Assembly (NCBI GenBank): GCA_024222455.1
Contig: JAAEPD010000225.1
Span: 1-64,000 of the forward strand
Direction of reading: 5' to 3'
DNA from: Aureispira sp.
Lineage (GTDB): Bacteria > Bacteroidota > Bacteroidia > Chitinophagales > Saprospiraceae
DNA: 64,000 bases
Below, one piece after another: positions 2,482 through 55,806 of the stretch. The position numbers and the translations under genes are program-made. The notes beneath the pieces were generated by a model. It saw only the letters and a list, made by a program, of their open reading frames with translations. It searched no databases and had not been told where the DNA came from. Numbering within the stretch: the first letter of the stretch is position 1; each line of letters opens with the position of its first letter.

Positions 2482-3394
2482 TCAAAAAAGTATTAATCAA
2501 TGGCAATATTTCTTCTCGTTTCACTTGTATCAAATCATGATCATTGTCAAACTCATAATATTCATGTGTTCCCATTACCGTCCTTGCCGTTTGGATAGTT
2601 TTGAAAGGAATGAGGTGGTCTACTTTCCCAGCGAAAAGCTGCATAGGCTTTTTTAACTGTTTCAGTTGTTTGTAATAGTCTAAAAAATCTAAAGATTGAT
2701 GCTCTTTAAAACTACTTAAAATCATGTATTCGGTCCCTCTTACTGCATATTGCTGCTGAATGCGTTTGGCTAATTCAGCATGATTAGGGTTGGTAACAAA
2801 TACCCCTGTTGAGTGTTTAATAATTTTATCTACTAGTACTACTCTAAAAAGCCAAGATCCAAATAAAGGTAACCTAAACAGCTTCAACGCAGCCATTGAA
2901 GGATCTTTCACCAAAGGAGCTATAAGTGTTAGTGTTTTCACTCTGTTGGGGTTTTGAGCAGTAAATACCGTAGATATAGCTCCTCCTAGAGAATACCCCA
3001 TTAGTCTTATAGGTCGGTTGGGCACCAAAGTATCTATCAACTCCAATAATTGACGTTGATAAAGCTCCTTTGTTGGCACAAAATCTACTCGATCCGAAAA
3101 GCCTCGCCCATAGTGCTCGTAAGTAATCACATAAAACCCCTTATTGGCGAACCACTCAGCCAATCCATCAAAAGAAACACTAGGAATCAAAGCTCCATGC
3201 ACCATAACCAGCACAGGATCATTGGAGTTTCCATAAGTCCAGTAGGCCGTTTGACCATCGGATAAGGCAATAGACAAAACTTTTTCTTGCGCTCTTAATT
3301 CTGAAGCCTCTATGACTTCTTTATTTTTCAGTATGAATATTCCTATCAATAGAAGGAAAAAAGCCCCTATACATCCTAACATTATCATCATCAA
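2468..3394 (-). CDS. Membrane-anchored alpha/beta hydrolase
   Basis: 308 aa. One N-terminal membrane segment (about 3-22) is followed by an alpha/beta-hydrolase fold. The oxyanion-hole motif is VMVHGALIP, the nucleophile elbow GYSLGG places Ser135, and the acid and base lie in FAGKVDHLIPF and FDNDHDLIQ. This is the layout of esterases or lipases that act at the membrane, and the substrate is unknown. The gene overlaps the DUF2306 gene upstream by 4 bp (ATGA) and the next gene by 14 bp, so all four genes form one tight transcription and translation unit. Confidence 0.8.
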   Translation of the reverse strand: MMMIMLGCIGAFFLLLIGIFILKNKEVIEASELRAQEKVLSIALSDGQTAYWTYGNSNDPVLVMVHGALIPSVSFDGLAEWFANKGFYVITYEHYGRGFSDRVDFVPTKELYQRQLLELIDTLVPNRPIRLMGYSLGGAISTVFTAQNPNRVKTLTLIAPLVKDPSMAALKLFRLPLFGSWLFRVVLVDKIIKHSTGVFVTNPNHAELAKRIQQQYAVRGTEYMILSSFKEHQSLDFLDYYKQLKQLKKPMQLFAGKVDHLIPFKTIQTARTVMGTHEYYEFDNDHDLIQVKREEILPLINTFLNENV

Positions 3395-4107
3395 AATTCA
3401 ATATTTTTCTCCTTAGGTTTTCCTAGATAATAATTCAATAAACCTACCCAAATTAGAATCTCTGCAATCACTAAATTTCCAATCCAACTAATCCAAGCTA
3501 CTAAGATATAAAAATGAGGATAACACAACATAGAAAAAACCTCTGGCTCACAATAAATTCCATTGTTAGCTTTATACACAGAAACTCCATAAGTTCCCAA
3601 TCGGAGTGTAATAGCAGACATAGTCATGGCATAGCTACGCAATATATACTCTCCATGCTCTCTTAATTTCTTCTGTCGGATAGTCCTGTAGGCCATATAA
3701 GTTAGAAACCACCACCCTACTGCTTGCAATACAAATGCAAATTGGGCAGGAGGCCCCCCATTTCCGTAAAAAGCCATGACTAACCCTGAAGGTGCAGAAA
3801 CTACCAAAATCATAAATATATACAGCTTCCCCATATTTCGATGCCACTTGGGGTATTTAAACATCAAAGTTTTAGAGAATTGGGTCAACCCTGCAGCTAG
3901 AACAATTACACTACTCCCTATATGTATATAGAAGGCAATCATCCAATGTCGAAGGTCGATAACTAGTTGTTTAGACAACAAAAAATCGATATCAGTAGGA
4001 AAGGGAGGCACATAATAAGGTAGGGCAATAATTGCCATCTGATAAGCAGAAAAAAGAATCACTACCAACACTAGTATTTTAGCTATGTATCCTAAAAATC
4101 TATGCAT
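3391..4107 (-). CDS. DUF2306 integral membrane protein
   Basis: 238 aa with about six hydrophobic segments. The conserved core WHRNMGKLYIF followed by APSGLVMAFYGNGG and later LREHGEYILRSYAMT matches DUF2306. Members of this family are uncharacterised multi-pass proteins with intramembrane histidines. It is the first gene of the minus-strand operon ending at 1295. Its promoter should lie in the 4108-4250 region; CAAAGATTA at 4214-4222 is an imperfect minus-strand -7 candidate. Confidence 0.75.
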   Translation of the reverse strand: MHRFLGYIAKILVLVVILFSAYQMAIIALPYYVPPFPTDIDFLLSKQLVIDLRHWMIAFYIHIGSSVIVLAAGLTQFSKTLMFKYPKWHRNMGKLYIFMILVVSAPSGLVMAFYGNGGPPAQFAFVLQAVGWWFLTYMAYRTIRQKKLREHGEYILRSYAMTMSAITLRLGTYGVSVYKANNGIYCEPEVFSMLCYPHFYILVAWISWIGNLVIAEILIWVGLLNYYLGKPKEKNIEF

Positions 4108-4200
4108 CCTACAATATATTTTATCTAATTTATGTATTTATAATGATAAATATCACCTATTAGGTTGACTTCTGTCATATAATCAAACGTTTGCTTGTCT

Positions 4201-4208
4201 TATGTTTG
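4201..4208 (+). promoter_or_regulatory. -7 box for the candidate RNA upstream of ribD
   Basis: TATGTTTG matches TAnnTTTG exactly. No good -33 box is present at the usual 19-21 bp. It would start a transcript near 4215 that enters the structured region described next. Confidence 0.35.
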
Positions 4209-4214
4209 TAATGC

Positions 4215-4440
4215 AAAGATTAGACAAGGTCATCAATCATATAGTAAAAGACTAAATTAGACCTTATAATCACCAACTATTATGAATTGCTAATTTAAGC
4301 ATAGTTCCCTAATAAAGGGAATAGTTGGAACTGAAACGATAAAATAGTTATAGAATAAATATTCTATACTCAAGATTAATAGCTGTCCGTTCTCTAATTC
4401 TCAGAGCAGGTGTCCACATGGGGTGCTTGCTCTTTTGTTT
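4215..4440 (+). ncRNA. Candidate structured RNA upstream of ribD
   Basis: Several nested helices can be drawn on the plus strand. AAGGTC (4226-4231) pairs with GACCTT (4260-4265). CCAACTAT (4273-4280) pairs perfectly with ATAGTTGG (4321-4328) and encloses two hairpins: TGCT/AGCA at 4288-4301 and TCCCT/AGGGA at 4306-4320. Together these make a three-way junction. ATAGAAT/ATTCTAT forms a hairpin at 4350-4367. The last element is a 13-bp stem ending in a T-run. No ORF fills the region. I see no match to an FMN or TPP riboswitch core, tmRNA or SRP RNA. It may be an independent sRNA or a leader of ribD. Confidence 0.45.
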
Positions 4441-4441
4441 T
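4403..4441 (+). terminator. Intrinsic terminator ending the candidate RNA
   Basis: Positions 4403-4415 pair with 4421-4433 over 13 bp (four G-T wobbles) around a five-base loop. TTTGTTTTTG follows. No plus-strand gene ends upstream, so it must end a leader or an independent small transcript. Confidence 0.6.
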
Positions 4442-4522
4442 TGTCAGATCTAGTTATTCTAATAAGTTTTGTTTTGCTGGATTTAATACCTAACAATATG
4501 AAAGTTTTAAGCTAGCTCTTAG

Positions 4523-4530
4523 TATCTTTG
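4523..4530 (+). promoter_or_regulatory. -7 box of ribD
   Basis: TATCTTTG matches TAnnTTTG and lies 21 bp before the ATG at 4552. Its position argues against an upstream TTG start at 4528, which would fall inside the promoter. Confidence 0.55.
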
Positions 4531-4551
4531 CAGCACAAAATTGTGCTGTAC

Positions 4552-5586
4552 ATGAATCATGAAATCTATATGCAACGCTGCATCCAATTAGCTCAACGAG
4601 GATTGGGTTATGCAGCTCCAAACCCTCAAGTGGGTTCCGTTGTTGTTTATAATAATAAAATAATTGGAGAAGGTTACCACCAACGATATGGCGAAGGTCA
4701 TGCAGAGGTAAATGCGATAGCTAGCGTAGAAGACAAATCGCTACTTGAAAAATCAACTATCTATGTGACCTTAGAGCCTTGCTTTCACTATGGCAAAACA
4801 CCTCCTTGTGTTGAGCTTATCCTCAAACATCGTATTCCTCATGTGGTTATTGCATCTACTGATCCTTACGAAAAAGTAGCTGGACAAAGTATTCAAAAAC
4901 TAAGAGCAGCAGGTGTAAAAGTAGAAGAAGGTATACTCAAAGAAGAGGCAGTATGGCTCAATCGACGTTTTTTCACAACTATCCAGAAAAAGCGACCTTA
5001 CATTATACTCAAATATGCTCAGTCTATAGATGGTTTTATAGGACAAGAGGGCAAAACACTACCTATTTCCAATGCATTGTGCAAACGACTGGTACATCAA
5101 TGGCGTAGCCAAGAAGCTTCTATAATGGTTGGCACTAATACTGCAGCAACAGACAACCCTCAACTCGATGTTCGACACTATTTTGGCAAAAATCCGCTTC
5201 GGTTAGTTATAGATAGAGACTTAAGGCTACCCAATGATCTTAAATTATTTGATCAGACTATTCCTACATGGGTGTTTACGGCTCAAGAGTCCAGCACTCA
5301 GAATACAGAGAACTTGCAATACATTCAAGTACCTTTTGGAGATCAATTGTTGCCCTCTATTTTAGAACACTTACAACAACAAAAAATCCAATCCTTATTT
5401 GTAGAAGGAGGAAAACAATTACTTCAGAGTTTTATAGACCAAGGCCTTTGGGATGAAGCTAGGGTGCTCATTGGCAACAAACATCTAAATAAAGGTGTAG
5501 AAGCACCTAAACTCAAAAATCATCATCTGCTAAAAGAAGAAAAAGTGGCTGATGATCGATACCGACTTTATACTAACAATGCCTAA
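4552..5586 (+). CDS. ribD: Riboflavin biosynthesis bifunctional deaminase/reductase
   Basis: 344 aa from the ATG at 4552. It deaminates the diaminohydroxyphosphoribosylaminopyrimidine intermediate and then reduces the ribosyl side chain, two steps of riboflavin synthesis. The N-terminal cytidine-deaminase fold carries the zinc motif H50-A-E52 and EPCxxxGKTPPC (Cys77, Cys86). The C-terminal half is the NADPH-dependent reductase (RPYIILKYAQSIDG onward, with FVEGG near the end). Length fits the family. The start was chosen because the -7 box lies at 4523-4530. A transporter gene follows after 21 bp. Confidence 0.93.
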   Translation: MNHEIYMQRCIQLAQRGLGYAAPNPQVGSVVVYNNKIIGEGYHQRYGEGHAEVNAIASVEDKSLLEKSTIYVTLEPCFHYGKTPPCVELILKHRIPHVVIASTDPYEKVAGQSIQKLRAAGVKVEEGILKEEAVWLNRRFFTTIQKKRPYIILKYAQSIDGFIGQEGKTLPISNALCKRLVHQWRSQEASIMVGTNTAATDNPQLDVRHYFGKNPLRLVIDRDLRLPNDLKLFDQTIPTWVFTAQESSTQNTENLQYIQVPFGDQLLPSILEHLQQQKIQSLFVEGGKQLLQSFIDQGLWDEARVLIGNKHLNKGVEAPKLKNHHLLKEEKVADDRYRLYTNNA

Positions 5587-24191: not shown

Positions 24192-24431
24192 ATGAAAGAA
24201 TATACTATATATAGTAGAGGGCAATTAGCTCTACGAAATGGCCAGGATAAAGAGGAAATTTGGGTGGCTTATCAGGGCATTATTTATGATGTGACAGATA
24301 GCCGTCTTTGGCGAAATGGAAAGCATTATGAACATTGGGCGGGGCAAGATCTTACGGAAGAAATTGGAGATGCTCCACATACAGAACAGGTATTCGAAAA
24401 GTTTGAAGCTGTTGGTAAATTAAAAAGCTAG
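24192..24431 (+). CDS. Small cytochrome b5-like haem-binding protein
   Basis: 79 aa from the ATG at 24192. A stand-alone cytochrome b5-type domain: IWVAYQGIIYDVTDSRLW followed by KHYEHWAGQDLT and GDAPHTEQVFEKF. The two histidines in these last motifs are the likely haem ligands, although the classical HPGG is replaced by EHWAG. Such mini-proteins occur in many bacteria with unknown electron partners. Promoter position decides the start. The stop codon lies inside a 20-bp terminator stem. Confidence 0.78.
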   Translation: MKEYTIYSRGQLALRNGQDKEEIWVAYQGIIYDVTDSRLWRNGKHYEHWAGQDLTEEIGDAPHTEQVFEKFEAVGKLKS

Positions 24432-24464
24432 TTTTATTTAAGGGTTAAATAAAACTAGCTTTTT
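24422..24464. terminator. Bidirectional 20-bp terminator hairpin
   Basis: Positions 24422-24441 pair perfectly with 24445-24464 around a GGG loop, with A and T runs on the outside. It overlaps the last codons of the cytochrome b5-like gene and also serves the converging lipoprotein gene. Confidence 0.88.
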
Positions 24465-24504
24465 AATTATTTTTTTACTGCTCTTAAAGGTTTTTCATCT
24501 TTAG

Positions 24505-29638: not shown

Positions 29639-29674
29639 AAAAGAGCCTTACTAAGATCAGTAAGGCTCTTTTTT
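29639..29674. terminator. Bidirectional terminator after fabI
   Basis: Positions 29639-29652 pair perfectly with 29659-29672 (14 bp, loop AAGATC), with a T-run on the plus strand and A-run upstream. It also faces the minus-strand gene ending at 29676. Confidence 0.88.
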
Positions 29675-34671: not shown

Positions 34672-34697
34672 AAATCAGAAACCAACCAATATTTTCA

Positions 34698-34730
34698 GGC
34701 TGCTAGAATTCTTCTAGCAGCCTTTTTTTT
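34698..34730 (+). terminator. Terminator of prc
   Basis: GGCTGCTAGAA (34698-34708) pairs with TTCTAGCAGCC (34712-34722) and is followed by eight T's. Confidence 0.92.
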
Positions 34731-44164: not shown

Positions 44165-44198
44165 AAAAGGAGCTAACTTCAACAGTTAGCTCCTTTTT
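44165..44198. terminator. Bidirectional terminator
   Basis: AAAAGGAGCTAACT (44165-44178) pairs perfectly with AGTTAGCTCCTTTT (44184-44197) around TCAAC. It serves both the amidohydrolase pair and the converging prs gene. Confidence 0.9.
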
Positions 44199-46258: not shown

Positions 46259-46293
46259 AAGGTAAACAGCAGTTATGTTGTTTACCTTTTTTT
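46259..46293 (+). terminator. Terminator of the CpcT-like gene
   Basis: AAGGTAAACAGCA (46259-46271) pairs with TGTTGTTTACCTT (46276-46288, one wobble) and is followed by a T-run. The histidine kinase gene starts 13 bp later. Confidence 0.85.
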
Positions 46294-54577: not shown

Positions 54578-54619
54578 AAAAAAGGTTAGTAACTATTATT
54601 TGAGTTACTAACCTTTTTT
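54578..54619. terminator. Bidirectional terminator after the PRODH gene
   Basis: Positions 54578-54594 pair perfectly with 54603-54619 (17 bp). It serves both the PRODH gene and the converging outer-membrane protein gene. Confidence 0.92.
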
Positions 54620-55668: not shown

Positions 55669-55686
55669 ATCTGTTAGAGGTATAAA

Positions 55687-55806
55687 TTATGCCTCTTTTT
55701 TCTTGTTTTTAGCGATTTTGCGCATCTCTTTAGCATTTTTACGAGCTTTTCCGTAAGAGCTAGAATTGATTTTACCACGCTTAGATCTTTTATCACCTTT
55801 TCCCAT
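55687..55806 (-). CDS. 30S ribosomal protein THX
   Basis: 39 aa, from ATG at 55804-55806 to TAA at 55687-55689. It starts MGKGDKRSKRGKINSSSYGK, which matches the THX family (MGKGDxxTKRGKIxxGSYGxxR), a small very basic protein bound in the head of the 30S subunit. The C-terminal tail is lysine-rich and longer than in Thermus. A terminator follows at 55635-55668. A possible -7 box TATCTTTA lies on the minus strand at 55848-55855, next to repeat element C. Confidence 0.88.
   Translation of the reverse strand: MGKGDKRSKRGKINSSSYGKARKNAKEMRKIAKNKKKEA

Follow-up and report, generated by a model that had tools for sequence, protein, structure and literature searches.

An orphan intrinsic terminator upstream of ribD marks out a candidate lineage-restricted small RNA in a Saprospiraceae genome

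The window analyzed here, a stretch of 64,000 nucleotides, contains a gap of 444 bp (positions 4108-4551) between two divergent genes, one for a DUF2306 membrane protein on the minus strand the other being ribD on the plus strand. Compared by RibD, the nearest named relatives belong to Aureispira, at 61-64% identity, which places the source genome in the Saprospiraceae neighbourhood. A sequence-only reading of this DNA had proposed that a region of the gap free of open reading frames (ORFs) carries a new structured RNA. The lack of coding potential was borne out, as no ORF longer than 31 amino acids was found from position 4108 to the reading frame of ribD. The possibility that a short ORF at position 4211, MQRLDKVINHIVKD, encodes a leader peptide was weighed and dismissed, since this ORF has no run of regulatory codons. 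The features of the locus are given in Table 1.

Table 1. Features of the locus and the genes on either side. The z-scores of sub-regions refer to parts that were selected after the fold had been seen.
Feature	Positions	Strand	Basis
DUF2306 membrane protein gene, divergent	3391-4107	-	PF10067, 115 bits
-7 box TATGTTTG, perfect TAnnTTTG	4201-4208	+	exact match; predicted start ~4213
5' helix, GATTA..AAGGTC / GACCTT.TAATC	4218-4272	+	folding; z -2.25 alone
Three-way junction, closed by CCAACTAT (4273-4280) / ATAGTTGG (4322-4329), with two inner hairpins	4273-4329	+	folding; z -3.67 alone
A/T-rich hairpin, TAGAATA..TATTCTA	4349-4368	+	folding; z -2.56
Intrinsic terminator, 13-pair stem (4403-4433), then T-rich tail TTTGTTTTTG	4403-4441	+	terminator scan
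-7 box TATCTTTG of ribD, distinct from the candidate RNA	4523-4530	+	motif scan
ribD (deaminase/reductase)	4552-5586	+	TIGR00326, 290 bits; PF01872 and PF00383

The terminator is the strongest part of the locus. Its stem and T-run, both described in the sequence-only reading, could be read directly, and the terminator has an energy of 16 kcal/mol. No gene lies upstream of it on the plus strand for 3.2 kb, back to position 1189; the terminator belongs to no gene, and as an orphan it is the only clearly non-random part of the locus. Terminators of at least 12 pairs from one scan over the window were set against the gene coordinates, and nearly all of the others were found within about 50 nt behind the end of a gene on the same strand (for example, 9145-9112, 15742-15710, 19409-19378, 34697-34723, 29639-29672, 44165-44197, 46259-46288, 54578-54619, and 62867-62826). 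A palindrome at 24420-24466, which has 20 pairs with long A/T arms and lies between two minus-strand genes, was scored on the plus strand, yet it is located 39 nt behind a minus-strand gene. Another apparent orphan, a weaker terminator at 55676, overlaps with the end of a gene missing from the annotation, which encodes the 30S ribosomal protein THX (55687-55806, minus strand, 39 amino acids; TIGR04560 at 43 bits, and PF17070). Behind this gene stands a very strong terminator hairpin, and the region is among those that fold best in the window. The orphan terminator at 4403-4441 favours a short independent transcript of approximately 4213-4438, which would be the simplest reason for a terminator at this place.

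An exact TAnnTTTG box was likewise read where the earlier reading had placed one, and the start site predicted in Table 1 follows from the -12 to -5 placement of such boxes in Flavobacterium psychrophilum (PMC9723704). Neither TTTG nor TTG was found at the spacing of a -33 element from this box. Over the 64 kb, exact TAnnTTTG occurs 62 times on the plus strand and 61 times on the minus strand, or approximately once per kb per strand. Taken alone, the -7 box is weak evidence for a promoter, because about 0.4 such boxes are expected by chance in a gap of 444 bp. The separate box of ribD, also part of the earlier description, was confirmed approximately 90 nt past the terminator.

The hairpins between box and terminator are predictions. 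Folding recovered the 5' helix, the three-way junction with its 8-bp closing helix and two inner hairpins, and the further hairpin, all matching the previously assigned places exactly or to within a few bases. The whole candidate (4209-4441, 233 nt) has a predicted energy of -50.9 kcal/mol and a z-score of -2.56, with 1 of 200 shuffles being as good, and the z-score is -2.12 when the terminator is removed. In an unbiased scan, we also folded both strands of every intergenic stretch in the window that measures 100 nt or more, using segments of 60 or 120 nt; 13% of the 120-nt segments had z-scores below -3 and the best reached -8. Several other intergenic stretches in the window folded much better than the candidate region. 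Since the latter scored -3.1 on the plus strand and -4.2 on the minus strand, the predicted folding signal is mild, not specific to the plus strand and not outstanding in the window. It is the orphan terminator that marks out this region, not the fold.

A BLAST search with the region against 61 genomes, and another against three Aureispira genomes and others, identified no homolog, the only matches being short and of chance size. With this one sequence and its predicted fold as input, a covariance model returned only the query (198 bits) among 18 chosen genomes, where the best other match had an E value of 2.3, and it found no homolog at E values up to 1 in 150 genomes of the family under the stricter filters used at that number. 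Collections of plasmids and phages gave no match to the region, and an exact pattern search of viral contigs returned nothing. In two Aureispira genomes and three other relatives, different genes lie upstream of the DUF2306 ortholog and no such element is present, with just 157 bases of contig remaining upstream in one of them. RNase P RNA, used as a positive control, was found by its model in all seven of the relatives compared, and by BLAST in the three Aureispira genomes with approximately 75% identity and 205-242 bits. Because the candidate is unmatched where RNase P RNA is readily found, these comparisons, in which the relatives include no second species of the source genus, indicate that it changes much more rapidly than housekeeping RNAs do, or else is limited to the source lineage. 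As a conserved family, the proposed new structured RNA was not upheld: neither BLAST nor the covariance model found a homolog, so that no covariation was obtainable. A lack of conserved pairing in relatives, which the earlier reading had named as grounds for giving up the proposal, speaks only weakly against it, as there was nothing to align.

We lean towards interpreting the candidate as a lineage-restricted intergenic sRNA of an ordinary kind, approximately 220-229 nt in length. An independent sRNA is preferred because an orphan plus-strand terminator is accompanied by an exact TAnnTTTG box, located at a fitting distance and on the same strand. A sigma-ABfr-type promoter would start transcription near 4213, and the intrinsic terminator would end it, giving an RNA of the above length with three or four hairpins, and this RNA would most likely act in trans, with open A/U-rich stretches pairing with mRNAs. 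Against this interpretation stand the absence of a homolog, and so of a sign of selection, a -7 box that is without a -33 partner and of a type common by chance, and a fold signal that is mild and not strand-specific. The independent sRNA of about 225 nt suggested earlier is retained as the best reading, whereas its assignment to a conserved structured family is unsupported.

Intergenic sRNAs of this kind are numerous in the Bacteroidota, where dozens have been described, and many are strain-specific (PMC7366714, PMC9723704); in Bacteroides thetaiotaomicron, 49 intergenic sRNAs were called with a start and an intrinsic terminator, and 27 of them were strain-specific (PMC7366714). GibS and the high-confidence set of 49 from B. 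thetaiotaomicron (PMC7366714), as well as the Rfp RNAs of F. psychrophilum (PMC9723704), resemble the candidate in their short length, lack of coding potential and intrinsic terminator, and are often lineage-restricted; their TAnnTTTG-type promoter has a putative counterpart in its -7 box. Those sRNAs were seen by RNA-seq, whereas the candidate is known from sequence alone, and no sequence relation to them is claimed. If transcribed, it would provide one more sRNA for a poorly studied family, the Saprospiraceae. The case is mainly useful as an illustration that controls are needed for -7 boxes and hairpins when a genome is A/T-rich.

The main rival to the sRNA is non-functional gap sequence, which we regard as a credible though rather unlikely account. 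The divergent genes would then simply be separated by A/T-rich sequence in which a -7 box and hairpins arose by chance, the terminator would be the leftover of a lost plus-strand gene or an insulator, and there would be no functional RNA. The chance expectation for exact boxes in the gap, folding that is unexceptional for the window and the lack of conservation are all consistent with this account. However, a 13-pair stem with a T-run behind it, oriented in the one way that plausibly suits a transcript from the box, is unlikely to occur by chance, and our scan revealed very few strong terminators away from gene ends.

The candidate precedes ribD on the same strand, and the sequence-only reading had offered, as a second option, an attenuated 5' leader for riboflavin genes, in which transcription from 4201 would halt at 4433 unless a signal opened the terminator. 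An alternative pairing of the 5' arm of the terminator with 4379-4393 is partly possible, but it is weak beside a terminator of 16 kcal/mol, and no convincing antiterminator was found; moreover, the -7 box of ribD itself lies beyond the terminator. When the regions upstream of ribD were compared, the close relatives were without any such element. In three Aureispira and one further Saprospiraceae genome, a serS-like coding sequence (named serS from our own reading of the sequence) precedes ribD, and the gap between the two genes in the three Aureispira genomes contains a terminator on the serS side, with a TATTTTTG box immediately ahead of ribD and no extra element. The FMN riboswitch (RF00050) precedes riboflavin genes in other bacteria, as the candidate precedes ribD, but its anatomy is different; its covariance model had no match in the region or anywhere in the genome, in agreement with the earlier remark that the region does not look like this riboswitch, and no other Rfam riboswitch was found at the locus. 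Considering the ribD genes of relatives, the separate ribD box, the weak alternative pairing and the absence of an FMN riboswitch, a regulatory link to riboflavin is unlikely, and the attenuated leader, left unsupported, appears improbable.

The search against Rfam that had been recommended as a check gave no significant hit to the candidate at gathering or permissive thresholds, and the few matches up to an E value of 10 were to eukaryotic snoRNA and microRNA families and a poor one to PrfA, all far under the cut-off and implausible. A new genus-level structured RNA, with its three-way junction conserved in sister species and a role as a trans regulator or ligand-binding element, is considered very improbable. 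Hardly to be expected at all is a housekeeping RNA, 6S for example, so diverged in this clade that Rfam models overlook it: the length would fit roughly and neither RF00013 nor RF01685 gave anything above cut-off in the source genome or nine relatives, but the predicted fold is multi-branched, whereas 6S forms a rod with a central bubble, and a housekeeping RNA ought to be found in Aureispira just as RNase P RNA was, which did not hold for the candidate. The 6S RNA of the clade is itself either missed by these models or absent.

A palindrome, GCAGCACAAAATTGTGCTGT at 4530-4549, overlaps with the position where transcription of ribD is predicted to start. It is not present ahead of the Aureispira ribD genes, and a search of the genome allowing one mismatch gave no second site; it may represent an operator or a chance occurrence.
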